From Verrucomicrobiia bacterium (GTDB taxonomy: Bacteria > Verrucomicrobiota > Verrucomicrobiia > Limisphaerales > Fontisphaeraceae): a stretch of DNA of 64,000 nucleotides. The position numbers and the translations under genes are program-made. Positions 8,105 to 51,428 of this stretch are shown here, in pieces (position 1 is the stretch's first letter; every line of letters starts with the position of its first letter). The notes below the pieces were generated by a model. It was not told the DNA's origin. It ran no database searches and worked only from the letters and a program-made list of their open reading frames with translations. The stretch is from the NCBI GenBank assembly GCA_026414565.1, contig JAOAIT010000038.1, positions 62,001 through 126,000 of the forward strand, given 5' to 3'.

Positions 8105-8165
8105 CGCCGGCGGGGGAGGTTGAGGCGGGCTGGGGGATTTGCTCGCGCGGGGCGACGGGGGGGCT

Positions 8166-9302: not shown

Positions 9303-9453
9303 GCTCAGTTGCCGGGCGTGGAGGCATCAAAGACCGCTTTGGGAATCCTGTCAAATGCGGATGCGCACAAGTTGTGCACAGGCGCCGCGCGAGCGTGGGG
9401 TGCGGGGGGCGAAGGCAGCCGGGCCCGGAGCTTCAGGCACACTGAGCCGACGG

Positions 9454-10728: not shown

Positions 10729-10824
10729 GGCATGAAGATAACTTGGCCGCAGACATTCGCCAATGGGGAAAACTCCCGGCAGGAAAAAGTGGCCCGGGAA
10801 TCTTGGGCTTGAGCTATTACAGAA

Positions 10825-10852
10825 TTGAACTTTTCCCTGAGTCCCCTAGCAT
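10825..10852 (+). promoter_or_regulatory. Candidate sigma-70-type promoter for the hybrid histidine kinase
   Basis: TTGAAC (10825-10830) is followed, after 16 bases, by TAGCAT (10847-10852), 33 bases before the ATG at 10886. A run of about twelve A residues follows at 10864-10874. The spacing and the relatively AT-rich setting fit a housekeeping promoter, but the match is by eye only. Confidence 0.35.
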
Positions 10853-10885
10853 ATCCATGCTGTAAAAAAAAAAACTACGTCGCCC

Positions 10886-13800: not shown

Positions 13801-14149
13801 GGTGGTCAAGACCAAGCTGGAGCGTTTAGGGTACCGGGTGCTGGTGGCGGGGAGTCCGGCGGACGCTCTGCAACTGGCGGAGCAGGCGCGCAATGGCATA
13901 GATTTGCTGCTCACCGATGTGGTGATGCCCGGGATGAATGGGCGCGAGTTGTATCAAACGCTGCTAAAGCACCACCCCCGGCTGAAATGCCTGTACATGT
14001 CCGGTTATAACGCCAACGTCATCGTCGAGCGGGGGGTGGTGGAAAAGGGCATACACTTTCTGCCCAAGCCGTTCAATTTGTACACCCTCAGCGTCAAACT
14101 GCGCGAGGTGCTTGACGGGCCGCCGGTGGATTCCTCCCGCCCGGATTGA
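10886..14149 (+). CDS. Hybrid sensor histidine kinase with two extracytoplasmic regions, PAS and receiver
   Basis: A 1087-residue membrane sensor. Order seen: transmembrane segment (about 12-32), a first periplasmic region (35-190), two membrane segments (about 193-212 and 230-256), and a CHASE-like periplasmic domain (270-500) with the segment GVQAWGWMPAIP. Then come another membrane segment (about 515-537), a short coiled coil, a PAS domain with PAC end (ITERKKAELE), HisKA with the phosphorylatable His near 717 (GGVAHDFNNML), HATPase with N box (NLCVNARDAI), G1 (DTGCGM) and G2 (GTGLGLAM), and a C-terminal receiver from about 955 with acceptor Asp near 1010 (LLTDVVMPGMNG) and Lys in FLPKPF. 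CHASE domains bind small extracellular ligands; which one is unknown. No cognate regulator is adjacent. Confidence 0.88.
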   Translation: MQLSSRLPKKLSPFLTFGVAIVFLLVLDAALIQVLITRTEHFFRLNFQETAELMAQTLPLEEIRALEGRPEDVHKPVYERLKAQFKALQKSVPDCRFIYLLGRRADGRLFFFLDGEPPESPDYSPPGQVFSEAQPGFYQVFDRWMPLVTGPNTDRWGTWVTALVPLNAGRKDGVPVVLALDWDASDWKRRVFREAMLPVIVFTLAVLIFLGFCLGLFKHRMKLGLKAPAWMDYLESGIVVGCGFILTGLVAWLAHQAEGRNRQQVFQHWATIRMAALAKALDNVVNVELEGLGRFFEGSESVTWQEFQLFAGYLTRHGGVQAWGWMPAIPPARQFPFEQAMRAEGFTNFWIWQLDEAGQQVPATGRDIFYPVTFLAPWSGNQRAQGFDAGSHPVRRRAMEQAEHSGWATATDVVALIHDREHQQGMVIYRPVYAEKPSGTLSGFAFAALRLKDFLQQVVTDRLVPLEWYILGTPHGTGKTAISISPDAQQPCLVYSCSVLAAGRVHELRALGLETFEKLYPKRAGIMTMVAGVFLSGALGVLVGLVRRYEARLELEVAERTRELRESEETFRKLFEDSADPIMLLKQGRFVGCNKATLRLLQASDSSQLLGRTPQDISPSRQPDGRNSAAAALEYMQRAEAEGGCRFEWEVRRLDGQSLLVDVSLVPIVVKGEKHLYATWRDITERKKAELERERLQTQLIQAQKMELVGRLAGGVAHDFNNMLHVILNYTELTREDLPPHHPLQENLKEIKDAAQRSADLTRKLLGFARQQTISPRVLNLNESVQAMQKTLQRLMGEEVRLVCVPGPNLWPVKMDPLQLDQVLANLCVNARDAIAGVGTVTIETHNVTVDAAAAAQMEDCLPGDYVMLSVRDTGCGMTPEVKARIFEPFFTTKEVGKGTGLGLAMVYGVVQQNHGFIHVESQPGQGSCFRLYFPRHQGAAEVSSAPAGIKSRPEMGHETVLLVEDEAAVWRVVKTKLERLGYRVLVAGSPADALQLAEQARNGIDLLLTDVVMPGMNGRELYQTLLKHHPRLKCLYMSGYNANVIVERGVVEKGIHFLPKPFNLYTLSVKLREVLDGPPVDSSRPD

Positions 14150-14172
14150 ACCGCCGGGCTTGGGGGCAGGCA

Positions 14173-15468
14173 CTACTCGGGCAGAGGAGGCAGTTGGAGA
14201 TCCGTGGGCGGACGCCCCACGGTCGGCCGCTGAAAGGTCTCCCCATAAGCGGTGAAGCCGGGGAGAAATCCGCCGTGACAAAGGAAGAACTGCCCCTGCT
14301 CGATGCCGCCAAAACGGTCCAGGCGATCGGCCTTGCCGGTGGAGTCATGGCTGAAACGGGCCTGCGTCAGCTCGAGCCATTGCCCCTGCGGCGTGCGAAT
14401 CCATTGATTGCCGTAGAGGGCTTTGCGCACGAGGTGGCCGGTGCTGCCGCCAAAATTTTCACTGAAACTATAGAGCCCGCGCAGATAGCCGCCCTCTTTG
14501 GGGGCGCGCCAGCTTGAAATCAGGATCCATTCCTTTTTTTCCGGGTGGAAATAATAGCCGGAAAAGATGGTTTGCTGCGGCGCCACGGGCTTGGCGGTGA
14601 CGATGAACCGCTGTTTTTCGCCGGTTTTCCACAGGTATTTGAGATGGCTGTGTCCGCCGGTGCCTTCGTTGCCAAAATCGCCTGCATAAACGTCCTGGCC
14701 TTTGGCCACCAGTTGGACGCGGTTTTCCTCGGGCACCTTGGCGCGGTCCACGGCCTCGTTGCCGCTGTCCCAGACACTGAAAATAATGCGGCGTTCATTG
14801 CGGCTGTTGACCTGCATGCCGAAGTAGCCGCGATGCCAGCCGCAGGCCATGTAGTAGGTGGTGACGGGGTCTTCCAGACCGGTCATCTCGCAATAGAAAG
14901 CCTCCACCTGGACCTCCTTGGGCACGGTATAAAACCAATGCACGGACGCGGCGTTGCGGCGGGATTTCAGGTTGAAATGAGCGCCCGCCACCGACGGACC
15001 GTCCAGCTCCAAGGCCTCAATATCCCCCGCCGCGGTGCCTTGGGCATTCCCAGATTCCAAAGTAAAACGGTAATAGCCGTTGGTGGGGATGGAGAAACGC
15101 CCGAAATCCGCCCTGAGGGTGTTGGTGCCCTGGCCGGTGACGGTGGCTTCGGCACTACGGCCGGCCAGGGTAAGGCGCAGCCGGCTGGTGCGGCCCTCGG
15201 GCAACCGCAGCGCGACGTGCACCTGCAATTCTCCCGGGGTTTTGAATTGCCCAAACCACAAGACTTTCAGCTCCGGGTTTTGCCAGCCACTGATGAGACC
15301 GGTGCGGGAGGAGATGCGCAGGCCGTCCGGGTCAGGCTCCACGTAGGCGGTATAGGCAGGGATGCGCAGGGTGGCGGCGTGAGCGCCGCAGAGCGCCAAA
15401 ACCAGGCAGGCCAGCGCGGCCGGCATGACGCGCCGCGGGTGGCCTGGATTTTTTTTCATAGTGAACAT
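14173..15468 (-). CDS. Secreted DUF3472 domain protein
   Basis: About 431 residues with an N-terminal signal peptide (hydrophobic AALACLVLALCGAHA, then ATLRIPAYTAY). The first half resembles the DUF5077-type beta-sandwich that often precedes DUF3472; the second half has the DUF3472 pattern, including TTYYMACGWHRGYFGMQVNS, RRIIFSVWDSG and FGNEGTGGHSHLKY. Members are secreted proteins of Bacteroidota, Verrucomicrobiota and Planctomycetota, often beside glycan degradation genes, and their biochemical role is not established. Start: ATG at 15468, with a second in-frame ATG at 15459; both give the same signal peptide. Longer upstream frames lack a leader and are unlikely. The gene is convergent with the histidine kinase and divergent from pdxH. 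Confidence 0.75.
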   Translation of the reverse strand: MFTMKKNPGHPRRVMPAALACLVLALCGAHAATLRIPAYTAYVEPDPDGLRISSRTGLISGWQNPELKVLWFGQFKTPGELQVHVALRLPEGRTSRLRLTLAGRSAEATVTGQGTNTLRADFGRFSIPTNGYYRFTLESGNAQGTAAGDIEALELDGPSVAGAHFNLKSRRNAASVHWFYTVPKEVQVEAFYCEMTGLEDPVTTYYMACGWHRGYFGMQVNSRNERRIIFSVWDSGNEAVDRAKVPEENRVQLVAKGQDVYAGDFGNEGTGGHSHLKYLWKTGEKQRFIVTAKPVAPQQTIFSGYYFHPEKKEWILISSWRAPKEGGYLRGLYSFSENFGGSTGHLVRKALYGNQWIRTPQGQWLELTQARFSHDSTGKADRLDRFGGIEQGQFFLCHGGFLPGFTAYGETFQRPTVGRPPTDLQLPPLPE

Positions 15469-15656
15469 GCGTGCAATGTAGGAGATAATCGCCCCAAGGC
15501 CAGCGTTAATTGAAAACCTTGGGGGGCCCAACCGGAGGGAACTGGGGCAGGGGGCGGGGATTTTGGGGGGCCAGCTTTGGGCTTGAAGCGACGGGGCGGT
15601 TGGGGTTGGAATATAGCCCTTGTCGGTGCTCGACAGAAAGGGAGCGGAAGTTGGAC

Positions 15657-16241
15657 ATGGATTGGAACACACCAAGCCTGGCCGCCTTGCTGGCGGGCAT
15701 CTGGGAACGCTTGGAGCTCGGGGCGGAACGCCGGGAGGATGCCTGGCATTTGGCGGCCCTGGCCACCGTAGATGCCGGCCGGCCGGCCGTGCGCACGGTG
15801 GTCTTGCGGGCGGCCGATGCCGAGCGGCGGGCCCTGGTGTTTTACTCGGACGCCCGGGCCAACAAAATCCAGCAACTGCAAATCCAGCCGCGGGTGGAAT
15901 GGTTGTTCTACGATCCGGTGGAGCGTATTCAGTTACGCGCCCGGGGGGTGGCGGTGGTGCATCATCAAAACGCGGTGGCCGAGGAGATCTGGCGCGCCCG
16001 CCCGGATTTGAATTACCTGCGGTATCTTTCGCCCCTGCCCCCGGGGACGGGCCTGCCAGCGTTTCTGCCGCCGCAGGTGGAGGTGGCCTCGGAGCATGAG
16101 CTGGCCTTCCGCAACTTTGCCGTGGTGATTACCACGGTGGAGCGTTTTGACTGGCTGGCGTTGTTCCCAGACGACACCCACAAGCGGGCCGAATTCACCT
16201 GGAACGGGGACGGGTACGACTCGCGGTGGATGGTGCCTTGA
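15657..16241 (+). CDS. pdxH: Pyridoxamine 5'-phosphate oxidase-family protein
   Basis: A 194-residue FMN split-barrel protein. Family features include AALATVDAGRPAVRTVVLRAA (the first FMN-contacting strands, here 11+ residues of a longer pattern), YSDARANKIQQLQ, VEWLFYDP and, at the end, RAEFTWNGDGYDSRWMVP. True PdxH ends in a R-L-x-P motif that binds pyridoxal phosphate; here the end is R-W-M-V-P. This and the unusual mid-region suggest a PdxH-like (Alr4036-type) flavoprotein whose substrate could differ from pyridoxamine phosphate. The ATG at 15657 follows GGGAGCGG at a good distance and is chosen over a longer in-frame opening. The lipoprotein gene follows by 50 bp. Confidence 0.72.
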   Translation: MDWNTPSLAALLAGIWERLELGAERREDAWHLAALATVDAGRPAVRTVVLRAADAERRALVFYSDARANKIQQLQIQPRVEWLFYDPVERIQLRARGVAVVHHQNAVAEEIWRARPDLNYLRYLSPLPPGTGLPAFLPPQVEVASEHELAFRNFAVVITTVERFDWLALFPDDTHKRAEFTWNGDGYDSRWMVP

Positions 16242-16291
16242 GGCAGGAATCCGGCTTTACAAGGCGGGGGGAGTTTGCCAACCTGCGGTGC

Positions 16292-16672
16292 ATGATGCGA
16301 AACGTTGCGCGGCTAGTGTTTTTGGGCGGTCTCCTCCTGCTGGTGGCGGGGTGTCACACCATTACCAATCTGACGCCGGCAAGTTTGCCCCGGAACCCCA
16401 GCGGACTCTATCCCGTCGAGGTCAAGTTTGATCACCGCGAGCAGGCGTTGCGGCAGGATTCCATCCGGCCCCTAGTCATGATCCAGGATCAAACCTATCC
16501 CATGGAGCGCACGCGCTTGATGAAAAACCGGTGGGAAACCTTGATCCCGGTGCCGGCCGATCAGAAAGAGGTCTATTACCGCTTCAAATTCGAGTACTGG
16601 GTCAACGCCTTTCCTGAGCCGCGGCAGGACAGCAAGCTGTCCCCCACTTACAAGCTGACCATCAAAGACTGA
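16292..16672 (+). CDS. Small predicted lipoprotein
   Basis: A 126-residue protein with a textbook lipoprotein signal peptide: basic start (MMRNVARL), hydrophobic core (VFLGGLLLLVA) and the lipobox VAGC. The mature part is about 105 residues, with beta-strand-like alternation and a stretch of aromatic residues (YYRFKFEYWVNAFPEP) resembling a small Ig-like or sandwich fold. I do not recognise a family. Two adjacent ATG codons (16292 and 16295) could both start it. It lies between pdxH and ispD in the same direction with short gaps, so co-transcription is plausible. Confidence 0.6.
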   Translation: MMRNVARLVFLGGLLLLVAGCHTITNLTPASLPRNPSGLYPVEVKFDHREQALRQDSIRPLVMIQDQTYPMERTRLMKNRWETLIPVPADQKEVYYRFKFEYWVNAFPEPRQDSKLSPTYKLTIKD

Positions 16673-16700
16673 TGGGGCTGGCGGTGGCCTTCCGGTTTCC

Positions 16701-17375
16701 ATGAATGCCGCCATCATTGTGGCTGCCGGCTCCGGCACCCGCATGGGCGCGGGGGTGGACAAGTTGTTTCTGCCGCTGGCCGGCCAGCCGGTGGTGCTGC
16801 ATGCGTGGCGGCAGTTGGATGCCTCGCCCTGCGTGCAGCAAATAATCCTGGTGGTGCGCGAGGGGCAGCAATCGCGCTTCTCCGCGCTGGCTCAAGACAC
16901 CCGCCTTGCCAAACCGTTCAAGGTGGTGGCCGGCGGGGCCGAGCGGCAGGACTCGGTGACCAACGGCCTGGCCGCCCTGGATCCGGCCGTCGAATGGGTG
17001 GCCATCCATGATGGGGCGCGCCCCTGTGTCAGCCCGGAGTTGATTGAGGCGACTTTCAAGGCCGCCATGCAACATGGCGCCGCTGTGGCCGCGCAAAAAG
17101 TCACGGACACCCTCAAGGAGGCCGATGCCGCGGGGTTGATTCGGCGCACGGTGGATCGCACCCATCTCTGGGCGGTGCAAACGCCGCAGACCTTCCGCGT
17201 GGACATCATCCGGCGGGCCCTGGCCGCTGCCCGTCAGCAGGGGCTGAACCTGACTGATGACACCGCCGCCTGCGAGCTGATTGGCCAGCCGGTGGTGTTG
17301 GTGCCCAGTCCGGCGCCGAATCCCAAGATTACCTATCCGGTGGACCTGCTTTACGCGGAGCGGTTGCTGCGCTAA
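16701..17375 (+). CDS. ispD: 2-C-methyl-D-erythritol 4-phosphate cytidylyltransferase
   Basis: Third enzyme of the methylerythritol phosphate route to isoprenoids; it joins CTP and MEP to give CDP-methylerythritol. The 224 residues have the nucleotide-binding start IIVAAGSGTRMGAGVDKLFLP, where the Arg and Lys bind CTP phosphates. Also seen are GGAERQDSVTNGL, the DGARPCVS segment, the VTDTLKEAD region and TPQTFR followed by TDDTAACEL. Length is typical of a stand-alone IspD, without fused IspF. The polyprenyl synthase two genes downstream uses the end product of the pathway, so the gene order is biochemically coherent. Confidence 0.93.
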   Translation: MNAAIIVAAGSGTRMGAGVDKLFLPLAGQPVVLHAWRQLDASPCVQQIILVVREGQQSRFSALAQDTRLAKPFKVVAGGAERQDSVTNGLAALDPAVEWVAIHDGARPCVSPELIEATFKAAMQHGAAVAAQKVTDTLKEADAAGLIRRTVDRTHLWAVQTPQTFRVDIIRRALAAARQQGLNLTDDTAACELIGQPVVLVPSPAPNPKITYPVDLLYAERLLR

Positions 17376-25060: not shown

Positions 25061-25612
25061 ATGAAAGAGAAATCCATCGGTTTGATTGAGTTGTCCAGTG
25101 TGGCCAGTGGTTTTCTGGTGGCCGATACCATGCTCAAGGCGGGCAATGTGCGCCTGATTTTGTCGCGCTCCATCTGCTCCGGGAAATACATGGTGCTCAT
25201 TGGTGGAGATGCCGCGGCGGTGCGCAGCGCGGTGGAATCGGGCGCGGCGGCGGCCAACGGCTGTTTGATTGATCAATTCGTCATCACCAACGTGCACGAG
25301 GATGTCATCGCCGCGCTGGGCCGGACGCATCCCGGGGAGCCTACGGGCGCGCTGGGCATCCTGGAATCGTTCAATGTGGCCACGTTGTTGCAGGCGGCGG
25401 ATGCGGCGGCCAAGGCGGCCAGCGTCACGCTCATGGAAATCCGCCTGGCCATGGCCCTGGGAGGCAAGGCCTTTGTGACCATGACCGGCGATGTCGGCTC
25501 GGTGCAGGCGGCGGTGGCGGCGGGCAAAAAGATTATCGCCGATGCCGGGGTGCTGGTGAATGCCGTGGTCATTTCCCGCCCGCATCCGGAGGTGTATCGG
25601 GAAGTCATCTAA
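25061..25612 (+). CDS. pduT: Tandem-BMC-domain protein, PduT-like (iron-sulfur trimer)
   Basis: A 183-residue protein made of two bacterial-microcompartment domains (about 4-90 and 95-180), as in BMC-T shell trimers. Domain 1 reads SIGLIELSSVASGFLVADTM and IGGDAAAVRSAVESG; domain 2 reads ALGILESFNVATLLQAADAA and TGDVGSVQAAVAAGKKI. Cys39 in SRSICSGKY sits where PduT has the Cys that holds a 4Fe-4S cluster at the trimer centre, so a redox function is likely. PduT binds PduS in the known system, and here the two genes are 18 bp apart. No BMC-H hexamer or BMC-P pentamer gene lies in the window, so a closed shell cannot be built from this locus alone. Confidence 0.88.
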   Translation: MKEKSIGLIELSSVASGFLVADTMLKAGNVRLILSRSICSGKYMVLIGGDAAAVRSAVESGAAAANGCLIDQFVITNVHEDVIAALGRTHPGEPTGALGILESFNVATLLQAADAAAKAASVTLMEIRLAMALGGKAFVTMTGDVGSVQAAVAAGKKIIADAGVLVNAVVISRPHPEVYREVI

Positions 25613-39895: not shown

Positions 39896-41647
39896 ATGCA
39901 GGACAGCAGGGTTCAACAGGACGGCCCGGTTCCGCGGAGCCGGGCGGGAAAGCTGGGGCTTTTTGCCCTGGCTGCCCTCCTTTTTTGGGGGGGATGCACG
40001 GCCAAATACCACCGGCAGGCGGCCGACAGGGAAGTGTACCGCTCGATCCACCAGACCCAGCAGCGGGTGCTGAAGAAGACCAACGACTTCAACATTGACA
40101 CACCGTGGTCGGCACGGAAACCGGAGTCGGTGCAGCCGCCGGAGTTGATCGAGAGCCGGTTGGAGACCAACCGGCTGGTGTTGTCGGTGCAGGAGGCCTT
40201 GGATCTGGCGGTCAAGAACAGCCGCGAATATCAGGAGCAAAAAGAAAGCCTGTACAGCACGGCACTCGCCCTGGCCCGCGAGCGGTACAAATACCAGCCA
40301 CGCCTGTTTGCCGGGGGCGACTGGGCCTTGCGCCGCCGCAGTGACGGCACCAAGGAGGGCACCTTGTCGGCCTCCAGCGGCGTGAACATGACCCAGCTCC
40401 TGGCCAGCGGCGGGCGGCTGGGACTGACGCTGGCCAATGACCTGTTCCGATATTACACCGGGGATCCGCGCCGCACGGCGGTTTCCAGTGTTTCAGTGAA
40501 TTTGGTGCAGCCTTTGTTTCAGGCCTTCGGCAACAACAACGATGCCCTCGAGAGCCTGACCCAGGCGGAGCGCAACCTGGTCTATGCCGTGCGCAACTTC
40601 AGCCAGTATCAGGAGCAGTTTGCGCTGAACATCCTCAACGACTATTTCAACATCCTGGCGCAGAAGGATGCCGTGCGCAACAACTACGCCAACTACCTGA
40701 GCCGCGTGGCGCAGACGGAGCGGCTGGAGGCGCGGGCGGTGGACCGCCAGACGCGCACGGAGGTGGATCAGGCCAAACAATCCGAGCTTTCCGCCAAAAA
40801 CAGCTACATCAACGCGGTGGCGCGCTATCAAACGCTGTTGGACAGCTTCAAAATCCGGCTGGGTCTGCCGCTGAGCACGAAATTGTACCTGGATGACAAA
40901 GCCTTGGAAGAAATCGCCCAGGTGGGGCTGATTCCGGTGACCTTGGATGCGGAGGAGGCCTACCGGCTGGCCACCGAGCGGCATCTGCCCACCTTGAATG
41001 CCATTGACCGCTTTCAGGACGTACAACGCCGCGTGCGGCTGGCGCGGGACAAACTCAAGCCCAACCTGACGTTCATCGCCGATGCCTCCCTGCAAAGCGA
41101 GCGGCCCACCGACTGGACGCGCTTTGACGCGCGCCAGGCCAGTGCGGGGGTGGGGCTGGAGCTGGATTTGCCGCTGGACCGCAAGAATCAGCGCTTTGCC
41201 TACCGGGAGGCGCTCATTGCGTTTGAGGCGCAAATCCGGGCGTTGACGCTGACGTTTGACAACCTGCGCAACAACATCGAGAACGGCCTGCGCACCATCG
41301 AGCAGCAGCGGCAGACGTATTTGATTCAGAAAAAAGCCGTCGAGCTGGCCAAGGTGCGCGTGGAAAGCACGACGATGAACCTGCAGGCCGGCAACGTGGC
41401 GGTGCGCGATGTGCTGGAGGCGCAGGACGCGTTGATTGCCGCGCAAAACCAGCTTACTTTATCGTTGGTGAGCTATCAGCAGGCGCGGTTGCGCCTGATG
41501 CTGGACATCGGGGCGCTGGATACCAGCAAGGAAAAGTTCTGGCTGCAGGATCACCTGGTGGGCTTCCTGCCCAAGGCGCCCGAAGCTGCGCCGGTGGAGA
41601 CCGAAGACAAGCCGGTGCTGCCGCCGGATGATTACTTTAACCAATAA
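39896..41647 (+). CDS. TolC-family outer-membrane efflux lipoprotein
   Basis: A 583-residue outer-membrane channel, first gene of a complete tripartite efflux operon. The leader (LGLFALAALLFWGGC) ends in a lipobox with Cys near residue 38. The body shows TolC-type long helices and two repeats: NSREYQEQKESLYSTALALARERYKYQP-like and QTLLDSFKIRLGLPL, then VELAKVRVESTTMNLQAG and VRDVLEAQDALIAAQNQLT. It ends with an acidic/Pro-rich tail. The adaptor gene begins 7 bp after the stop. The preceding 194 bp (39702-39895), shared with lipA in the opposite direction, should hold the promoter, but I cannot place it. Confidence 0.88.
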   Translation: MQDSRVQQDGPVPRSRAGKLGLFALAALLFWGGCTAKYHRQAADREVYRSIHQTQQRVLKKTNDFNIDTPWSARKPESVQPPELIESRLETNRLVLSVQEALDLAVKNSREYQEQKESLYSTALALARERYKYQPRLFAGGDWALRRRSDGTKEGTLSASSGVNMTQLLASGGRLGLTLANDLFRYYTGDPRRTAVSSVSVNLVQPLFQAFGNNNDALESLTQAERNLVYAVRNFSQYQEQFALNILNDYFNILAQKDAVRNNYANYLSRVAQTERLEARAVDRQTRTEVDQAKQSELSAKNSYINAVARYQTLLDSFKIRLGLPLSTKLYLDDKALEEIAQVGLIPVTLDAEEAYRLATERHLPTLNAIDRFQDVQRRVRLARDKLKPNLTFIADASLQSERPTDWTRFDARQASAGVGLELDLPLDRKNQRFAYREALIAFEAQIRALTLTFDNLRNNIENGLRTIEQQRQTYLIQKKAVELAKVRVESTTMNLQAGNVAVRDVLEAQDALIAAQNQLTLSLVSYQQARLRLMLDIGALDTSKEKFWLQDHLVGFLPKAPEAAPVETEDKPVLPPDDYFNQ

Positions 41648-41653
41648 TTGTTT

Positions 41654-43654
41654 ATGAGCACCTCTTCGACGATTCCCGCTCCGCCGCCGCTGTGGCGGCG
41701 CAAGCCGGTGCTGGTGGTGGTGGCCCTGCTGGCGGTGTTCACAGCCTACGCCGTCGTGCGCGGCCGCGCCAAAAACCAGGTGCAACCCACGGCTTATTTC
41801 GAGGTGAAGCGCGGGGACTTCCTCATCTCCATTGTGGAGGGCGGCAACATTGAGGCCGTGAATGAAGTGGTGGTGCGCAGCGAGGTGGAGGGCACCGCCC
41901 GCATCATTTACATCGTGCCCGAGGGCACCACCGTCAAGAAGGGGGATCTGCTGGTGGAACTGGACTCCAGCTCCAGCCAGGATGCGGTGAATCAGCAGCA
42001 GATCAATGTGGAGAAAGCCCAGTTTGCCGTGATCCAGGCCGAGCAACAGTTGGAAATCCAAAAAAGCATGGTGGAAAGCGAAATCTCGGCCGCTGAGCTG
42101 AAACTGGAGTTTGCCAAGAGCGATCTGGAAAAGTTTGAAAAGGGTGAGGCCGCCCAGTTGTTGCGGGATGCGCAGATTGAAATCACCAACGTGCTGGAAA
42201 ACTTGAAGATTGCCGAGGAAAAGCTGGGTTGGACGGAAAAGCTGTATGAGAAGGGCTTTGAAACCAAGGCCAACCTGGACCGCGACCGCCTCTCGGTATC
42301 CCAGACCAAATTACGGCTGGAGCAGGCGCAAAAGAAATTGTGGATGCTGGAGAGTTTTGATCTGCCCAAGAAGCGCCGCACGCTGGAGGCGGCCGTGGAG
42401 GATGCCAAGGATGACCTGGAGCGGGTCAAGCTGCAGGGCCAGCGCCGGCTGGCGCAATATGAGGCGGATGTGCAAACGCAGAAGAGCACGCTGGAGCTGA
42501 GCAAAAAGAAGCTGGAACGCGACATGCGGCAGTTGGCCAACACCAAGATTTATGCCCCCAATGACGGGTTGGTGGTGTATGCCGGCGGGGGCGGGGACCG
42601 GCGGTTCAGCAGTGAATCCATGATTGAGGAAGGCGCCGTGGTGCGGTATCGCCAGGAGCTGATCAAGCTGCCGGACATCTCCGAGTTCAAGGTCACCGTC
42701 AAGGTGCATGAGTCGCACGTCAACCAGTTGACCCGCGGCCAGCCGGCGTATGTGGTCCTGGATGCCATGCCGGACCGCCGCTTCCAGGGGGCGGTCAACC
42801 GGGTGGCACCCTTGCCGGATACGTCCAGCCGCTGGGCCAATCCCAATCTTAAAGTCTATGCCACGGAAATCCTCATCCTGGAGCCGCTGCCCAATGTGAA
42901 GCCGGGGGTGTCGGCCCGGGCCGAGATCATCATCACCAATCTCAAAAGCGTCCTCACGGTGCCCATCCAGTGCGTGACCACGCGCAAGGGCAAGCAGGTG
43001 GTGTTTCTGGCGGATAATCCCAGCGTGCCGGTGCCGGTCAATGTGGGCATGTACAACACCAAGTTCATCGAAATCACCTCCGGCTTGAAGGAGGGGGACC
43101 GCGTGCTGCTCAGCCCGCCTTTCGATGCGCAGGAGAAAGATCTGGCGGGCGCCATCGTGGGCAAGGATGAAAAGACGGAGGGGCTCACCAACACCCCGCC
43201 GGAGCGGCTCAATCGCATGGTGCCCGAGAACGGGAGGGACAATGGCGCGGCCGGCTTCCCGGAGCCGGGCAGTGGACGCGGCCCGCGCGGGCAGCGCGGA
43301 GAACGGGGTGAGCGCGGCGATGGAGCGGGCATGTTTGGGCCGGGGGCTGGCCGGGGCGGGGAGAACGCCGGCGGTGGCGACGCCGCCGGCCCGGGCGGCG
43401 GTGGCGGGCCGGGCGGGCAGCCGGGCGCGGGCCGCGGCGGGCCGCGGTTCAGCCGCGAGGAAATGATGAAACGCTTTGACACCAACGGCGACGGAGAATT
43501 GGACGAAAACGAGCAGGCGGCCATGCGTGAGGCCATGCGCGCCTTCCGCCGCCCCGGCGGCACCAACGCCCCGGCAGGGTTCCCGGGGCCGCGCCCGGAC
43601 GGCGGGATGCGTCCGGAGGGTTTTTCTGCACCGCGCAACGATGGCAGCCGCTGA
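41654..43654 (+). CDS. Efflux adaptor (HlyD/MacA-type) with C-terminal Gly-rich linker and EF-hand
   Basis: A 666-residue periplasmic adaptor. One membrane segment (about 16-34) is followed by the biotinyl-lipoyl half FLISIVEGGNIEAVNEVVVR, a long coiled-coil hairpin (about 110-300), the second lipoyl half (NTKIYAPNDGLVVYAGGG), the beta-barrel (LPDISEFKVTVKVHES) and a membrane-proximal domain. Beyond about 500 the sequence departs from the family: a Gly/Arg/Pro-rich linker (about 535-600) leads to a perfect calcium-binding EF-hand loop (DTNGDGELDENE, Asp609 to Glu620) and another Pro/Gly tail. The TTG at 41648 is less likely than the ATG at 41654. It overlaps the ABC ATPase gene by 14 bp. Confidence 0.88.
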   Translation: MSTSSTIPAPPPLWRRKPVLVVVALLAVFTAYAVVRGRAKNQVQPTAYFEVKRGDFLISIVEGGNIEAVNEVVVRSEVEGTARIIYIVPEGTTVKKGDLLVELDSSSSQDAVNQQQINVEKAQFAVIQAEQQLEIQKSMVESEISAAELKLEFAKSDLEKFEKGEAAQLLRDAQIEITNVLENLKIAEEKLGWTEKLYEKGFETKANLDRDRLSVSQTKLRLEQAQKKLWMLESFDLPKKRRTLEAAVEDAKDDLERVKLQGQRRLAQYEADVQTQKSTLELSKKKLERDMRQLANTKIYAPNDGLVVYAGGGGDRRFSSESMIEEGAVVRYRQELIKLPDISEFKVTVKVHESHVNQLTRGQPAYVVLDAMPDRRFQGAVNRVAPLPDTSSRWANPNLKVYATEILILEPLPNVKPGVSARAEIIITNLKSVLTVPIQCVTTRKGKQVVFLADNPSVPVPVNVGMYNTKFIEITSGLKEGDRVLLSPPFDAQEKDLAGAIVGKDEKTEGLTNTPPERLNRMVPENGRDNGAAGFPEPGSGRGPRGQRGERGERGDGAGMFGPGAGRGGENAGGGDAAGPGGGGGPGGQPGAGRGGPRFSREEMMKRFDTNGDGELDENEQAAMREAMRAFRRPGGTNAPAGFPGPRPDGGMRPEGFSAPRNDGSR

Positions 43655-44375
43655 GACCATCATCCGCCTGGAAGGCGTCAAGAAACACTACGTCCTGGGC
43701 ACGGAGGTCACCGTCCGCGCGCTGGACGGGGTGAATTTGGAGGTCAAGCGGGGCGCCTACGTGGCCATCATGGGGCCTTCCGGCTCCGGCAAATCCACCA
43801 TGCTCAACATCCTGGGCTGTCTGGACCGGCCCACCGCCGGCCGGTATTACCTGGGGGGCATTGATGTGTCGGCGATGCCGGATGACCAGCTCTCGGCCGC
43901 GCGCGGGCGGATGATTGGCTTCATTTTCCAGAGCTACAACCTGATTGCGCAACTCACGGTCATTGAAAACATCCAGGTGCCGCTGTTGTATCAACGGAAG
44001 GATTTGCGGGCGCACTATGACCACTGCGTGCGGCTGGCACAGTTGGTGGGCCTGGGCGAGCGTCTGCATCACCGCCCCAACCAGCTTTCCGGCGGCCAGC
44101 AGCAGCGCGTGGCCATCGCGCGGGCGCTGGTCAATGATCCGTTGATGATCCTGGCCGACGAGCCCACGGGCAACCTGGATTCCACCACCGGCCGCGAGGT
44201 GCTGGAGTTGATTGACAGTCTCAACGCCCAGGGCAAAACCATCGTGCTCGTCACCCACGATGAACGCGTCGCCGGCCGGGCGCACCGCATCATCCACATG
44301 CGCGACGGCCTGATTGACCGGGAGGTGATGAATGGACATCGGGCGGCCGCTGGGAGCGCGCCCCGGAACGTATGA
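43641..44375 (+). CDS. MacB/LolD-type ABC transporter ATPase
   Basis: A 244-residue ATPase energising the efflux complex. Motifs: Walker [11 protein letters not shown]-loop [13 protein letters not shown], signature [15 protein letters not shown], Walker [15 protein letters not shown], and switch His in VLVTHDE. The FQSYNL segment and the spacing are typical of the MacB/LolD family. The ATG at 43641 lies inside the end of the adaptor gene. The stop overlaps the permease start (ATGA at 44372-44375), so the four genes are coupled. Confidence 0.93.
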
Positions 44376-45664
44376 ATCCGCTGGCTTTCCAATTTCTGGT
44401 GATTGTGCGGCTGGGCATCAAGAGCCTGCTGCTGCACAAGCTGCGGTCGGCGCTGACGATGCTGGGCATCATTTTCGGCGTGTGCTCGGTCATCGCCATG
44501 CTGGCCATCGGGGAAGGCGCCTCCTACGAAGCGCAGGAGGCCATCAAACGCCTGGGCAGCGCCAACATCATCATTCGCAGCGTCAAACCGCCGGAGGACA
44601 CCAAGGTTTCCGGCCTGGGCCGCGGGATGAGCATTGATTACGGGCTGACCTACCGCGACGCGGCGCGCATTCAGGATACCGTGCCGGGGGTCAAGCGCGT
44701 GCTGCCCGTGCGCATCATTCGCGAGAATGTGCGTTTTGCGCAGAACAGTGTGCCCTGCCAGGTGCTGGGGACACTGCCGTTTTACCCTGAGATTGTCGGG
44801 CTGGAGATCCTGCGGGGGCGTTTCCTGAGTGATTGGGACGAGATCAATAATGAAAACGTCTGTGTCTTGACGCTGGGGTTGGCGCAGCGGCTGTTTCCCT
44901 ACCAGGATCCGCTGGAGCAGTCGGTGAAGATTGACGCGTTTTACTACCGGGTGGTGGGCCTGGTGCGGGAGCGCAACCTGCCCGAACAGCGCACCCAGGC
45001 CGGGCGGATGGAGGGCGAGCCGCTGGATAATAATGTGTACATCCCCTTGAGCACGTCGCGCACCCGTTTCGGGGAAGTGCTCATCCGGCGCTCGGCCGGC
45101 AGTTACGAGGCGGAAAAGGTGGAGTTGCATCAGATCACCGTGCAAATGCACGACACCGCCACGGTGGAGACGGCGGATCCCCAAATCAAGACGTTGCTGC
45201 GCCGTTTCCATGACAAGGTGGATTACGAAACCATTGTGCCCCTGCAACTGCTGCGGCAGGCCGAGCAAACCAAGCGCATCTTCAACATCGTGCTGGGCTC
45301 CATTGCCGCCATCTCGCTGCTGGTGGGCGGCATTGGCATCATGAACATCATGCTGGCCACCGTGACGGAGCGCACCCGGGAGATTGGCATTCGGCGCGCC
45401 CTGGGCGCCACCCGGCGGGACATTACCATGCAGTTTCTGGTGGAGACGGTGGTGCTGGCCATTGGGGGCGGCCTGATTGGGGTGTTGGTGGGCATCGTCA
45501 CGCCGGTCATTGTCTCGCACCTGACCACCATGAAAACCATCATCACCTTGTGGTCGGTGCTGGTGGCTTTTGGCATCTCCGGCGCGGTGGGCATTATCTT
45601 TGGCCTCTATCCCGCCAAGGCCGCCGCCCAATTGGATCCCATCGAGGCCCTTCGGCACGAGTAG
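44372..45664 (+). CDS. MacB-type FtsX/DUF214 permease
   Basis: A 430-residue permease with the type VII ABC topology: one membrane helix near residues 25-48 ([19 protein letters not shown]), a large periplasmic domain (about 50-300), and three helices at the end around 305-425, with the family segment [22 protein letters not shown] between the second and third. Together with the upstream ATPase, adaptor and TolC-like protein it makes a complete MacAB-TolC-like pump, for which export of peptides, lipopeptides or lipids is the known range. The substrate here is unknown. Confidence 0.92.
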
Positions 45665-46481: not shown

Positions 46482-46754
46482 ATGCCGCAAGCCATCATGG
46501 ATCCAGAGGACGTGAGGCGCTTTGCCGAAGAGCTGCAGCGCTTCAATCGTGATTTACAGAACCGGCTCAGCTCCCTCCAGGCCCGCTTTGCCGCGCTGGG
46601 CGAGACCTGGCAGGACCAGGAGCAGGTGAAGTTTGCCGATGAATTCAAGACGACCCTCAAGGCGCTCAAGCGTTTCATCGAGGTGGCCGATCAGCATGTG
46701 CCCTACCTGATGCGCAAGGCCCAGCGCATCCAGGATTATTTGAACCAGCGCTGA
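46482..46754 (+). CDS. WXG100-like small helical-hairpin protein (W-x-D form)
   Basis: A 90-residue protein predicted as two amphipathic helices joined by a short turn, the size and shape of WXG100/ESAT-6 proteins. The turn holds Trp43-Gln-Asp45 instead of W-x-G, followed by Phe51 and Phe55. The N-terminal helix is VRRFAEELQRFNRDLQNRLS, and the C-terminal helix ends near YLNQR without a clear Y-x3-D/E export signal. There is no signal peptide, as expected for a type VII-like substrate or structural partner. It starts an operon with a coiled-coil gene, a second hairpin protein sharing the same Trp/Asp/Phe pattern, and an FtsK-like ATPase. The ribosome-binding site AAAGG precedes the ATG. Confidence 0.7.
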   Translation: MPQAIMDPEDVRRFAEELQRFNRDLQNRLSSLQARFAALGETWQDQEQVKFADEFKTTLKALKRFIEVADQHVPYLMRKAQRIQDYLNQR

Positions 46755-46757
46755 GCC

Positions 46758-47342
46758 ATGGCCGAACGCGCGCACGTATCCTCCACCGAGGCCATAGACG
46801 CGTTCAAGGCGGCGCTGGTGGTGTACCTGAGCAAGTCGCGCCTGCTGCTGGAGGATGCCTGCGACGAGGTGCTGCGGCTGCGCACCTGGCTGCAAACCGA
46901 TCGCCGCCTGTATTGGGAGGCCCAGGTTCGCCGCCGCCAGAAAATCCTTGAGGAAGCCCGCCAGGTGCTCTTCGGCGCCAGCATGGCCAACCTGCGCGAG
47001 CCTTCCGCGGCCGAGCGCCTGGCCGTTCAGCGGGCCCAACGGGCGCTGGCCGAGGCCGAGGAAAAGCTCAATCGCGTCAAACACTGGACGCGCGAATATG
47101 AGCACCGCGTGGAGCCGCTGCTGCGTCAGTTGGAAAGCCTGCGCACCGTGCTCACGCATGACATGCCCAAGGGCGTGGCCTACTTGAATCAGATTTTGCA
47201 AACGTTGGACGCCTACACCGGCATGAAGGCCCCCGCCATCGAGCCGGCGGCGGAAACCCGCGGGGAGGGGGAGGCGGACGGACCGGCGGCCGGCAGCGAT
47301 GCGGCCGCCGGCGGCGCTTCCGCCGAAGGAGAGCGCTTATGA
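46758..47342 (+). CDS. Coiled-coil protein of the FtsK/WXG-like operon
   Basis: A 194-residue, almost wholly helical protein. Residues about 10-150 have long heptad-type runs rich in Arg, Glu and Leu (RRRQKILEEARQVLF; VQRAQRALAEAEEKLNRVKH), followed by a second helical stretch and a low-complexity Ala/Gly/Glu tail (about 168-194). There is no signal peptide or membrane segment. It begins 3 bp after the first hairpin gene and overlaps the next gene by 4 bp (ATGA). It could be a chaperone or rod-like partner of the two hairpin proteins, or a larger secreted substrate. No family recognised. Confidence 0.65.
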   Translation: MAERAHVSSTEAIDAFKAALVVYLSKSRLLLEDACDEVLRLRTWLQTDRRLYWEAQVRRRQKILEEARQVLFGASMANLREPSAAERLAVQRAQRALAEAEEKLNRVKHWTREYEHRVEPLLRQLESLRTVLTHDMPKGVAYLNQILQTLDAYTGMKAPAIEPAAETRGEGEADGPAAGSDAAAGGASAEGERL

Positions 47343-47551
47343 GTGTGGGGAATAACGGCAAAACCCTCCTGGCCCTGACCAAGGACCTCATGCTGCGGTG
47401 GGAGGAAACCCGCAACTACTGGCGCGACGCCAAGAGCGAGGAATTCGAGCGGCGTTTCCTGGCCGAATTGATGACCGGCGTGGACAAGTCGGCTGAAGTT
47501 TTTGAGCATCTGGATAAACTGATGCAGCACGTCCGCCACGATTGTGAGTAA
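47339..47551 (+). CDS. Second WXG100-like small helical-hairpin protein
   Basis: A 70-residue protein with the same turn pattern as the first gene of the operon: Trp28-Arg-Asp30, then Phe36 and Phe40 (W-x-D-x5-F-x3-F). The helices before (LLALTKDLMLRWEETRNY) and after (ELMTGVDKSAEVFEHLDKLM) are shorter than in WXG100 proteins. Two non-identical hairpin proteins flanking a coiled-coil protein suggest a heterodimer, as with EsxA/EsxB. Its ATG overlaps the preceding stop (ATGA), and its 3' end overlaps the GTG of the ATPase gene by 8 bp, a sign of strict co-translation. Confidence 0.68.
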   Translation: MSVGNNGKTLLALTKDLMLRWEETRNYWRDAKSEEFERRFLAELMTGVDKSAEVFEHLDKLMQHVRHDCE

Positions 47552-50500
47552 CCCCCTGACCATCCCCCAGACGCTGGAGCTGTTGGAGCGCCTCAAGACC
47601 CTGGTGCGCGATTGCGCCCGGCGGGAGGAGCAACTGCTGCGCGACGAACGCCAGAAGCGCGAAGCCATTGAACGCCAGCACCGCAATGCCCTGGAGGAGC
47701 TGGAAGTCTGGCGCGCCGCCGAGGAAAGCCGGATTCGCACCCAGTCCGAAGCGCGGCAAACCGCCCTCGAGCTGCGGCATCGGCAGCGGCTGGAGCGCAT
47801 CCGGCGGGGCCATCGGCCCAGCAAGGCGCAGGCTCTCAAGCGCATCGAGGATCATGAAGGCCGCCAGAAAGTGGCCCTGCAAAAGGCGCAAATGGAGGCG
47901 GCCCGCAACCGGGAACAGGGCCTGGCTCGTAACGATGCCGCGCTGGCGGCCTTTCACGAGCAACTGGGCGCGCTGCGCGCGGAGTTCGAGGCACTCGAGC
48001 TGCAAGCCCTGCGCCTCATGTCGGGGTACGGTTATTTCAAGCAGATGCTCACCGGCGCCGGCCTGCCTGACGAGCCGGAGCCGGCGGAGGAGGAGCCGCA
48101 GTTGCTGGAAAAGCTGGGCCAGTTGCGCGGGCAGGTGGAGGCGGATTTGCGCCAATTTCGCCGCCGGGCGGCGGCCTGGTTTTACCGGCTGCTGCCGGTG
48201 TGGGTGCAGGGCATCGTGCTGGTGGCCGCCGGCGCGGGGTTGCCGCCGTTGTTGAAATATTTCAAGCTGGCCGAAATTTCCTGGACTCTCAGCGGCGGCG
48301 CGGCGGGGGCTTTGCTGGCGGCGACGCTGATATTTTATTTTTTGAGCCGCCGCGCCGCCCTGCCTGAAGCCCGCAAGATTGCGCAGGCCCTCGAGCGCGC
48401 CCGCCGCTGGCACAACGCCGCTTTGAGCAAAGCCCAGGCCCGCCACGCCGCGGAAGTCGAACGCCTTGAGACCGAGCTGCGCCAGGCCAATGAGGAAATC
48501 AACCGCCGCTGGCAGGAGGCCACGGAGGAGGCCGCCCGCCTGCGCGAGTTCTGGCCGGCAGAGATTGACCGCAAACTGGCGCGGGTGCTGGAGCGCCACG
48601 AGCGGCTTGGCCAGCAGCGGCTGCAGGAGATTCAGCGGGGGCGGGAGGACGCCCTGCGCGAGTTGCAGGAGGAATATGAGCGCCGGCGGCTCGCCTTGGA
48701 GCAAAATCGCAGCGAGCGCACCGCCCGCTTGAATGCCGAGACCGATGCGCTGTGGGCCTCCCTCATGCAGGACTGGCAGGCGCAATGCGAACCGCTCCTG
48801 CGCGAGGCGCAGGCCGCCGCCGAGTTTGCCCGGCAGGACACCCCGCCCTGGGAGCCGCCGTTGTGGGAGCATTGGACGCCCCCCGAGACGGCCCGGAATC
48901 GCATCAAGTTTGGCCAGTTGGAGGTGGATTTGCGTCTTTATGCGGAGGGTGCGCCCAAGGATCCGCGCCTCCCCATGCCCGGCGGCGGACACCTTTCCCT
49001 GCCGCTCTGGCTGCTGTATCCGCAGCAGGGTTGCCTGTTGTTCGAGACGAATCGCACCGGCAGCGCCGAGGCCATTGCGGCCATCAACAACATCCTCTTT
49101 CGGCTGCTGGCCACCACGCCGCCGGGGAAGCTGAGTTTCACCATCATTGATCCGGTCAAGCTGGGGCAGAACTTTGCCGGCATCATGCATCTGGCCGATT
49201 ACGAGGACAACCTCATTAACGGCCGCATCTGGACCCAGACCACGCAGATTGAGGAGCGCCTCAAGGACCTGACCGAGCACATGGAGAAGGTCATCCAGAT
49301 GTACCTGCGCAACGAGTACGAAACCATCGCCGAGTACAACGCGCAGGCGGGGAAAATTGCGGAGAAATACCACTTTGTCATTATTGCGGATTTCCCCATG
49401 AATTTCAGCGATGCGGCGGCCAAGCGGCTGTTGCACATTGCTTCGAGCGGGGCGCGTTGCGGGGTTTACACCTTGATTCACTGGGATCACCGCTACACCA
49501 GCACGGCGGACCTGGCGCCGGACGTCCTCCGCAAAAACAGCGTGTGCATTCAACGGCCGGGGGATTTCTTCACGCTGGCCCGCCTGGGGCCGGTGGGCGT
49601 GCGTCTGCAGCTTGATCCGCCGCCGCCGCCCGAGCTGGCCATTGCCTTCCTGCATCAGGTGGGGGAGTTGAGCCGCGGCGCCAACCGCGTCGAGGTCCCT
49701 TTCGAGCAGGTCGCCCCTGCGCCCGAGGAGGTTTGGTCGCTGGATACGGCGGAGGAGTTGCGCGTGCCCATCGGGCGCAGCGGCGCCACCAAGCTGCAAT
49801 ATCTGGCCATCGGCCGGGGCACCAAACAACATGCGCTGGTGGCCGGTAAAACCGGCTCGGGCAAATCCACGCTTTTCCACGTCATCATCACCAACCTGGC
49901 CCGGTGGGCCAGCCCGGAGCAGGTGGAGTTTTACCTGGTGGATTTCAAGAAGGGCGTGGAGTTCAAATGTTACGCCAATCACCGGCTGCCGCATGCCCGG
50001 GTGGTGGCCATTGAAAGTGATCGTGAATTCGGCCTGAGCGTCCTGCAGCGCCTGGACGAGGAGCTGCGCCGGCGCGGCGATTTGTTTCGCCAGGCCGGGG
50101 TGCAGGATTTGGCCGGCTACCGCCGCGCGGGCGGCGCGGAAAAATTGCCGCGCACGCTGCTGCTGATTGACGAGTTTCAGGAGTTTTTTGTGGAGGACGA
50201 TCGCATCGCGCAAACCGCGGCAGTCCTGCTGGATCGGATTGTGCGCCAGGGCCGGGCCTTTGGCATTCATGTCATCCTGGGCTCGCAAACGCTGGGCGGC
50301 GCCTACACCCTGGCCCGCACCACCATGGGGCAGATGGTCATCCGCATTGCGCTGCAGTGCAACGAGGCCGATGCCTACCTCATCATGGATGAAAACAATG
50401 CCGCGCCGCGCCTGCTCTCACGCCCTGGCGAAGGCATCTACAACGATGCCGCGGGCGCGTTGGAGGGCAACAGTCCCTTCCAGACGGTGTGGCTGCCCGA

Positions 50501-51428
50501 GGAGGAGCGCGACCAGGTGCTGGCCGCGGTGCGCGCCCGGGCTGATCGCGAAACCCCGCACTACACCGGGCCGGTGGTGTTTGAGGGCAACGCCCCCGCC
50601 GACGTGCGCGACAACCACGCCCTGCAGGCCCTGCTGGCGCAGCGCCCCATCCAGCCGCCGCCGCTGGCGCGGCTCTGGCTCGGCGCGCCCAACTCGATCA
50701 AAGGCCCCACCGAGGTGGTTTTCCAGCGGCGCAGCGGCAACAACCTCCTCATCGTCGGGCAGCGCGACGAGGCCATCCTGACCCTCGTCACCGTCGGGGC
50801 CGTGGCCCTGGCAGCGCATTACCCGCAAAAGGCCGCACGGTTTTATTTCCTGGATGCCTCGCCGCCGGAAACACCGCAGCGGCAGCTCATTGAACAACTC
50901 CCCGGCGTCATTCCGCATCCCTTCACCCTGGCCAAAAGCGGTGATGTGGGCGGCCTGTTGGGCGAGTTGGTGCAGGAATTGCGCGCGCGCACCGAAACTG
51001 ACGCCGCCCAGGCGCCCGAAATCTTCGTGTTCGTTCACGGCCTGCAAAACTTCAAGAAACTCAAGGTGGAGGACGAGTTTGCCTTCTCCATGGACAGTGG
51101 CGGCGAGGCCAGCCCGCCCGCGCAGCTCAGTCAGCTCATTACTGAAGGGCCCACGCACGGCATTCATTTGATTGTGGCGGTGGACACTTACAATAACGTG
51201 AACCGTTTCCTGGGCCGCAAGGCCCTGAGCGAATTTGAGATGCGGGTGCTCTTCCAGATGAGCGCCAATGATTCCGCCAGTCTGTGCGATGATCCCGGCG
51301 CCAGCCATCTGGGGCTGCATTGTGGACTGTTCTACAATGAACAGGAGGGTTACCTGGAGAAATTCCGGCCCTATGCCGTGCCCGAGCGCGTCTGGTGGGA
51401 GCAGGTGGCCCGCGCACTGCGGAGTTGA
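47544..51428 (+). CDS. Membrane-anchored FtsK/SpoIIIE-type ATPase, EccC/EssC-like, with coiled coils
   Basis: A 1294-residue protein, GTG start. Order: coiled coil (about 10-160), two membrane helices (222-240 and 249-268), a second coiled coil (about 275-425), then three ATPase-like units. Unit 1 (about 490-690) has LLFETNRTGSAEA (498-510) and FTIIDPVKLGQNFAGI in place of Walker motifs and looks inactive. Unit 2 (about 755-960) is intact: GKTGSGKST (768-776), EFYLVDFKKGVEF, LLLIDE (872-877) and sensor segment VILGSQT. Unit 3 (about 1045-1290) is degenerate (NNLLIVGQRDE, 1066-1076; EIFVFVHGL from 1159). Two helices followed by three tandem ATPases is the plan of EccC/EssC, the type VII secretion motor. 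DNA translocase FtsK has one motor and a winged-helix tail, which is absent here. The preceding WXG-like genes support secretion. Confidence 0.85.
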   Translation: MSNPLTIPQTLELLERLKTLVRDCARREEQLLRDERQKREAIERQHRNALEELEVWRAAEESRIRTQSEARQTALELRHRQRLERIRRGHRPSKAQALKRIEDHEGRQKVALQKAQMEAARNREQGLARNDAALAAFHEQLGALRAEFEALELQALRLMSGYGYFKQMLTGAGLPDEPEPAEEEPQLLEKLGQLRGQVEADLRQFRRRAAAWFYRLLPVWVQGIVLVAAGAGLPPLLKYFKLAEISWTLSGGAAGALLAATLIFYFLSRRAALPEARKIAQALERARRWHNAALSKAQARHAAEVERLETELRQANEEINRRWQEATEEAARLREFWPAEIDRKLARVLERHERLGQQRLQEIQRGREDALRELQEEYERRRLALEQNRSERTARLNAETDALWASLMQDWQAQCEPLLREAQAAAEFARQDTPPWEPPLWEHWTPPETARNRIKFGQLEVDLRLYAEGAPKDPRLPMPGGGHLSLPLWLLYPQQGCLLFETNRTGSAEAIAAINNILFRLLATTPPGKLSFTIIDPVKLGQNFAGIMHLADYEDNLINGRIWTQTTQIEERLKDLTEHMEKVIQMYLRNEYETIAEYNAQAGKIAEKYHFVIIADFPMNFSDAAAKRLLHIASSGARCGVYTLIHWDHRYTSTADLAPDVLRKNSVCIQRPGDFFTLARLGPVGVRLQLDPPPPPELAIAFLHQVGELSRGANRVEVPFEQVAPAPEEVWSLDTAEELRVPIGRSGATKLQYLAIGRGTKQHALVAGKTGSGKSTLFHVIITNLARWASPEQVEFYLVDFKKGVEFKCYANHRLPHARVVAIESDREFGLSVLQRLDEELRRRGDLFRQAGVQDLAGYRRAGGAEKLPRTLLLIDEFQEFFVEDDRIAQTAAVLLDRIVRQGRAFGIHVILGSQTLGGAYTLARTTMGQMVIRIALQCNEADAYLIMDENNAAPRLLSRPGEGIYNDAAGALEGNSPFQTVWLPEEERDQVLAAVRARADRETPHYTGPVVFEGNAPADVRDNHALQALLAQRPIQPPPLARLWLGAPNSIKGPTEVVFQRRSGNNLLIVGQRDEAILTLVTVGAVALAAHYPQKAARFYFLDASPPETPQRQLIEQLPGVIPHPFTLAKSGDVGGLLGELVQELRARTETDAAQAPEIFVFVHGLQNFKKLKVEDEFAFSMDSGGEASPPAQLSQLITEGPTHGIHLIVAVDTYNNVNRFLGRKALSEFEMRVLFQMSANDSASLCDDPGASHLGLHCGLFYNEQEGYLEKFRPYAVPERVWWEQVARALRS

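Follow-up and report, generated by a model that had tools for sequence, protein, structure and literature searches.

Type VII secretion systems (T7SSs) are commonly taught as Gram-positive machines of many parts. Among them, T7SSa (ESX, with EccC) and T7SSb (Ess/Yuk, with EssC) combine a WXG100 protein with an EccC-family ATPase anchored by membrane helices. The WXG100 plus EccC/EssC core recurs in the subtypes T7SSc–T7SSj, some of which lack FHA domains; the paper describing these subtypes (Garrett et al. 2024, PMC11217815) places them in Gram-positives only and gives those considered here at least five components and four NTPase domains.

WXG100 together with FtsK in Gram-negatives has been noted in reviews, without functional confirmation (PMC10765036). 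The HP0062/HP0066 pair of H. pylori is an example, and the WXG100/FtsK pair has been named a minimal T7SS (both PMC4978471). PMC11090510 treats it as a stand-alone system with reference to Anantharaman 2012, and PMC6471051 credits the WXG100 proteins of Verrucomicrobia to Sutcliffe 2011. The WXG100/EssC-like modules of TerY-P/CoCoNuT defence islands are, according to PMC11090510 (citing Anantharaman 2012) and PMC4978471, likewise noted as standing alone. The general arrangement of WXG100 and FtsK in Gram-negatives including Verrucomicrobia is already known (PMC10765036, PMC6471051, PMC4978471, PMC11090510).

Here we describe a locus of four genes, P1 to P4, that gives the impression of a much reduced relative of the type VII secretion machine. 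It lies in a window of 64,000 nucleotides, which is the whole stretch of DNA that was analysed. The module shares with T7SSa and T7SSb the WXG100 protein and the membrane-anchored EccC-family ATPase, but EccB, YukD and EssB were not detected, the motif is W-x-D rather than W-x-G, a C-terminal YxxxD/E is lacking, the catalytic Walker motifs are confined to the middle of three ATPase units, and coiled coils stand where those systems have FHA domains. Compared with T7SSc–T7SSj as described there, it has only four genes and three units. The Gram-negative WXG100 and FtsK pairs of Sutcliffe 2011, as cited in PMC6471051 and PMC10765036, probably include the present system or sister systems; those two texts make no mention of P2, P3, gene overlaps or phylum-wide linkage. 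No description of the four-gene, membrane-anchored version was found in the literature searched, and Sutcliffe 2011 and Anantharaman 2012 may include the locus. Its interest therefore lies mainly in the minimal, anchored and effector-free form and in its breadth. Four genes retained together across Verrucomicrobiota would reveal the irreducible core of a T7SS. They would also open to direct test the question of whether WXG100 hairpins and an EccC motor suffice to translocate protein in a cell with an outer membrane. In addition, the module ties T7SSs to WXG100/EccC modules found in anti-phage islands.

Organization of the Locus

The ORF reading agrees with the original prediction of four co-directional genes (window positions 46482–51428, + strand) with gaps or overlaps of +3, −4 and −8 bases. 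The coordinates of the genes and of the parts of P4 are given in Table 1.

Table 1. Window positions of the four genes and of the regions assigned within P4.
Feature	Position	Strand	Basis
P1, WXG100 protein, 90 aa	46482..46754	+	PF06013 39 bits; W-x-D-x5-F in 31/31
P2, predicted long helical hairpin, 194 aa	46758..47342	+	AlphaFold2 pLDDT 87.3
P3, WXG100-like protein, 70 aa	47339..47551	+	W-x-D-x5-F in 33/33
P4, EccC/EssC-type ATPase, 1294 aa, GTG start	47544..51428	+	Profile and Foldseek
P4 residues 1–215, charged, coiled-coil-like N-terminal region	47544..48188	+	Sequence reading
P4 residues 216–267, predicted two-helix membrane hairpin	48189..48344	+	Hydropathy
P4 unit 1 (~453–690), RecA-like, without Walker A	48900..49613	+	AlphaFold2, sequence
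P4 unit 2 (~739–983), putative catalytic unit	49758..50492	+	PF01580
Walker A GKTGSGKS, residues 768–775, catalytic K774	49845..49868	+	Letters in 75/75
Walker B LLLIDE, residues 872–877	50157..50174	+	D876 and E877 in 75/75
P4 unit 3 (~1042–1277), RecA-like, without Walker A	50667..51374	+	AlphaFold2, sequence

The −4 overlap was found in 62 of about 71 loci, and P3 and P4 overlap by 8 bases in 54 of 72; this conservation suggests coupled translation. The dN/dS values of all four genes, calculated against a same-genus genome, were 0.03–0.10; purifying selection acts on P1, P2 and P4, which also occur together. No RNA elements were found, and the promoter scan gave no candidate on the + strand. 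The 8-base P3/P4 overlap, GTGAGTAA (window 47544–47551), is preserved over much of the phylum. As a consequence, the sequence at the start of P4 is tied to the Cys-Glu terminus of P3, and vice versa.

P4 Groups with the EccC/EssC ATPases

An ATPase with two membrane helices and tandem FtsK/SpoIIIE units had been predicted, and both features were recovered. The helices are predicted at residues 216–234 and 249–267, in a hairpin with Arg/Lys flanks on both sides, and the AlphaFold2 model of residues 431–1294 contains three RecA-like units, which gives the order coiled coil, membrane hairpin, coiled coil and three RecA-like units. Hydropathy analysis of 75 P4 homologues gave two membrane segments in 72, one in a single protein and none in two. 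The Walker motifs occur in the middle unit only, with the Walker A lysine and the Walker B Asp-Glu present in 75/75 homologues. In the two homologues without membrane segments, from loci L095 (P4 at 8001–11774) and L111 (P4 at 7077–10805), the whole hairpin is replaced by a short linker and the ATPase motifs are intact.

P4 matched the FtsK/SpoIIIE family of Pfam in two stretches (1.7e-32). When compared with the NCBIfam models, as the original prediction had proposed, it scored best with EccCa (3.1e-33), its 115 bits standing below the equivalog cut-off of 509 bits, whereas the FtsK model gave 3.3e-9 and 35 bits. The Foldseek search returned EccC (4nh0, 1e-28 over all units), followed by EssC and then FtsK (1e-10), with modest TM-scores (0.35), which are to be expected when multi-unit proteins differ in their hinge angles. 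In the tree, which has long branches, P4 was placed outside the branch of chromosomal FtsK (branch support 91/98). Judged by profile, predicted fold and tree, P4 belongs with the EccC/EssC ATPases.

An FtsK/HerA-type DNA translocase with unrelated small helper proteins as neighbours is very improbable. It could draw on the common FtsK_SpoIIIE fold and on weak HerA and FtsK profile matches, but the profile scores, the Foldseek ranking over all units and the tree position all speak against it, as do the separate chromosomal FtsK carried by the genome of the window and the strict linkage of P4 with WXG100 genes described below. The FtsK/HerA reading of P4 was thus rejected by profile, fold and tree, in keeping with the original expectation that P4 would not group with DNA translocases.

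The Small Proteins P1, P2 and P3

The suggested search against PF06013 had a divided outcome for the small proteins: P1 passed the curated cut-off (39 bits and 1e-9, with the cut-off at 27.3), and P3 had no Pfam match. Together with the EccC type of P4, the P1 score bears out the proposed WXG100 and EccC relationship. The motif of P1 is W43-x-D45-x5-F51, and all aligned homologues have W-x-D-x5-F, with W-x-G in 0/31. Their identity to the window protein is 53–76% across the phylum, and the C-terminus of P1 (...RKAQRIEEYLNQR) is conserved. By these features, P1 is a true member of the WXG100 family, but with W-x-D in place of W-x-G. A YxxxD/E-type signal was sought in the last 40 residues of the homologues of P1, P2 and P3 and was present in 0/31, 0/33 and 0/33 of them, respectively.

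The profile search of the whole genome of the window recovered a single WXG100 gene above the cut-off, with no further WXG100 protein and no LXG effector. Since the genome has one WXG100 protein and no LXG protein, any substrate should lie within the module. The accessory parts covered by the search were EccB, EssB/YukC and YukD; the genome gave no match above the cut-off for any of those covered, and to that extent the absence of recognisable accessory T7SS parts was confirmed.

P3 carries the motif W28-x-D30-x5-F36, and the same spacing is kept in its homologues. In the hhalign comparison of P3 with the P1 family, the motif was aligned in register with E = 0.004 but with a probability of just 8%. 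P3 ends in ...DCE. A signal function of this end was considered and rejected, because the overlapping gene sequence (TGTGAGTAA/TGTGAATAG) spells C-E-stop in its own right.

P2 had been described as a coiled-coil protein, and its AlphaFold2 model adds that it is predicted with high confidence to form a long helical hairpin, with helices at residues 10–77 and 84–155. The tail of about 40 residues is disordered, variable and rich in Pro, Ala and Glu. P2 has no catalytic domain and reaches a maximum length of 232 aa in 71 loci; the fold search against the PDB returned only generic coiled coils, none with an E value below 0.099. All three small proteins are thus predicted to be of hairpin or WXG-like character, P1 and P3 from their sequences and P2 from its AlphaFold2 model.

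The Module Is Conserved as a Unit in Verrucomicrobiota

The module was followed in 80 named loci, 70 of which have enough upstream sequence, and the complete four-gene order was found in 67 of these 70. The exceptions are L085 (without P1 and P2), L087 (without P1) and L122 (without P3, on a contig that starts just before). Within the order of the window, all four genes stood together in 20/20 sampled loci. A long P4 homologue was present in 52/97 genomes of this order; P1 and P2 were each present in 51/97, in the identical 51 genomes and always with P4, and in the sole P4 genome without them, G038, the P4 gene lies at the edge of a contig. In the phylum sample, an above-cut-off WXG100 protein and an EccC-like ATPase of >200 bits were found in the same 16/289 genomes, near each other in most of them. 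The four genes are a real unit, beyond chance, and the predicted co-occurrence of the small proteins with the ATPase was observed.

The carriers belong, according to the record titles, to Limisphaerales/Pedosphaera, Verrucomicrobiales (Prosthecobacter, Roseibacillus and the isolate Verrucomicrobium sp. BvORR034) and Chthoniobacterales (Spartobacteria), the titles of some metagenome-assembled genomes (MAGs) being unreliable. Three module-bearing MAGs (L097, L100 and L110) are titled Akkermansia muciniphila and look mis-titled. The host of the window had been taken for a member of Verrucomicrobiota with an outer membrane; its placement in this phylum (Limisphaerales) was borne out, and Pfam matches for lnt and OEP/TolC support the outer membrane. 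Within genera, the pattern of presence and absence points to inheritance accompanied by losses and not to the mobility of an island.

The module is missing from about half of the order. This bears on the reading of P4 and the hairpins as an envelope-organising machine, i.e., an inner-membrane scaffold of, for example, a compartment or septum that translocates nothing. The coiled coils on either side of the membrane hairpin, the three helical partners and the high conservation of P1 would suit such a scaffold. We consider it unlikely, as an intact FtsK-superfamily ATPase with WXG100 partners usually implies translocation and the patchy presence in the order argues against a core division function.

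The Nearest Relatives Lie in Defence Islands

The ATPase core of P4 scored 147–246 bits against relatives outside the module, 74 against EccC and 45–50 against FtsK. The ATPase genes of two such relatives (L146 and L147) adjoin VWA, PP2C, kinase and Card1/CARF genes. In Rhodococcus, one relative has an N-terminal TerD fusion (L157, plasmid NZ_CP126457.1) and another, on a different plasmid, adjoins an Hsp70 gene (L158), while a short relative comes from a genome of the same class (L145). In the tree, the ATPases of L145–L147, L157 and L158 group with the module and apart from FtsK, on long branches. An island on a Caballeronia plasmid has the order VWA, WXG100, a 436-aa helical protein, two small proteins and the ATPase, which is followed by a CARF protein, VWA, PP2C and a kinase. 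The WXG100 protein of this island shares 41% identity with P1 (hhalign E 3.8e-23), and the order WXG100, long helical protein, small protein, ATPase is common to the module, the Caballeronia island and L147. By these comparisons, the nearest kin of the module are the WXG100/EccC modules of TerY-P/CARF defence islands, not T7SSa or T7SSb.

L147 (G308, 6666–17345) is a second, distinct WXG100/EccC locus in a Verrucomicrobiota genome that holds the module too (L148). Its genes encode VWA, WXG100, a coiled-coil protein with a nuclease-like C-terminus, the ATPase, a Card1-like CARF nuclease, VWA, PP2C and a kinase. The 436- and 442-aa island proteins look as if they end in a D-ExK nuclease region, the L147 one without a Pfam match. 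A nuclease-bearing helical protein fits the described WXG100/EssC-like operons of CoCoNuT islands (PMC11090510).

No homology was detected between P2 and the nuclease-like coiled-coil proteins encoded in L147 and L173; what they have in common is the place of the gene and a helix 2 that ends in L-x-x-Y. P3 had no detectable homology to the small genes that precede the ATPase in L157 and L173. L157 does have a P1-like partner, and the N-terminal 140 residues of its P2-position protein match the P2 family (E 3e-6, probability 88%; control coiled coil, E 0.2) before the protein continues into an extra C-terminal domain. A likeness of this domain to ParB/Srx was seen by eye and set aside, as there was no Pfam match. 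Because the P2-position proteins of relatives carry extra domains, P2 occupies their putative-effector position, yet it is effector-free in 71 Verrucomicrobiota loci.

According to PMC11090510, the TerY-P and Type III-A CoCoNuT modules likewise have three ATPase units with the central one alone active, an N-terminal coiled coil, a WXG100 protein with a second small protein and the same gene order. Their ATPases, in contrast, are without membrane helices, their coiled-coil protein is fused to a nuclease, and they sit in islands, whereas the module keeps the P4 hairpin in 72/75 homologues, has no nuclease-like domain in P2 and no VWA, PP2C, kinase or CARF genes, and is vertically patterned. SspH (mads_8 in PADLOC) has the FtsK-like ATPase domain in common with P4 (4.7e-31) and nothing else that aligns; FtsK-like proteins of SspH size from the same phylum (1772–1848 aa) form a tree branch separate from P4.

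The ATPases of the island relatives mostly have no membrane anchor, which makes a role other than export a real rival. The module could be a membrane-tethered stress or defence device in which the ATPase and the WXG100 hairpins act as an intracellular switch or assembly, without a nuclease, kinase or phosphatase. The kinship of P1 with the Caballeronia protein, the gene order of that island and of L147, the unanchored ATPases of these islands and the TerD fusion all point this way, as do the membrane-less P4 versions within the module's own family (L095 and L111). As these two are otherwise intact, purely cytoplasmic action is conceivable, as in the island relatives. We nevertheless hold this reading to be possible but rather doubtful: the flanks of 20 related loci contain no conserved neighbour, of defence or otherwise, the sole PADLOC matches reflect the shared ATPase fold and a coiled coil, the inheritance pattern does not suggest island mobility, and the hairpin is retained almost throughout.

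A Possible Role in Export Across the Inner Membrane

Export of the hairpins is the likeliest function suggested by the sequences. The proposal that a self-contained, four-gene, type VII-related machine translocates a hairpin complex across the inner membrane is given a probability of roughly 0.45. P4 would form a ring at the inner membrane. P1 and P3 would associate by way of their hairpins, possibly including P2, and bind to one of the ATPase units. Powered by ATP hydrolysis in unit 2, the hairpin complex would then cross the inner membrane into the periplasm, with P2 as cargo or carrier. As there is no evident outer-membrane step or separate toxin, the expected product is a complex of helical proteins in the periplasm or envelope rather than an injected effector.

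This proposal is supported by the WXG100 protein above the cut-off, the EccC-type motor, the membrane hairpin, the invariant Walker A and B motifs, the strict linkage and the conserved gene overlaps. The Rhodococcus protein with a P2-like N-terminus and an extra C-terminal domain is what would be expected, by analogy, if P2 is a carrier. Against export stand the lack of YxxxD/E, the lack of EccB, YukD and EssB in the genome, the two P4 homologues (L095 and L111) that have conserved catalytic motifs but no membrane hairpin, the 8% probability of the P1–P3 profile alignment, and the nearest relatives being in defence islands and mostly unanchored.

More speculatively, the module may be a distinct, minimal type VII-like translocator of ancient inheritance in a double-membraned phylum. 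Its motor would move the three hairpins encoded in the module so that they form an envelope structure, and would not deliver toxins. The WXG100/EccC modules in defence islands would then have arisen from such a membrane-anchored form, or the module would be a domesticated offshoot of theirs.

Other Loci in the Window

Just upstream of the module (window 39896–45664), a complete operon encodes OEP/TolC-like and HlyD/MacA-like proteins, an ABC ATPase and a MacB permease. This efflux operon was considered as part of the system and rejected, since the 20 related loci have no recurrent gene beside the module apart from its own four. Further away, at 25061–25612, lies a gene whose product, a BMC shell protein, matches the BMC domain in two stretches (PF00936, 2.3e-43), directly followed by a gene for a 486-aa protein. 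This is a possible bacterial microcompartment locus.
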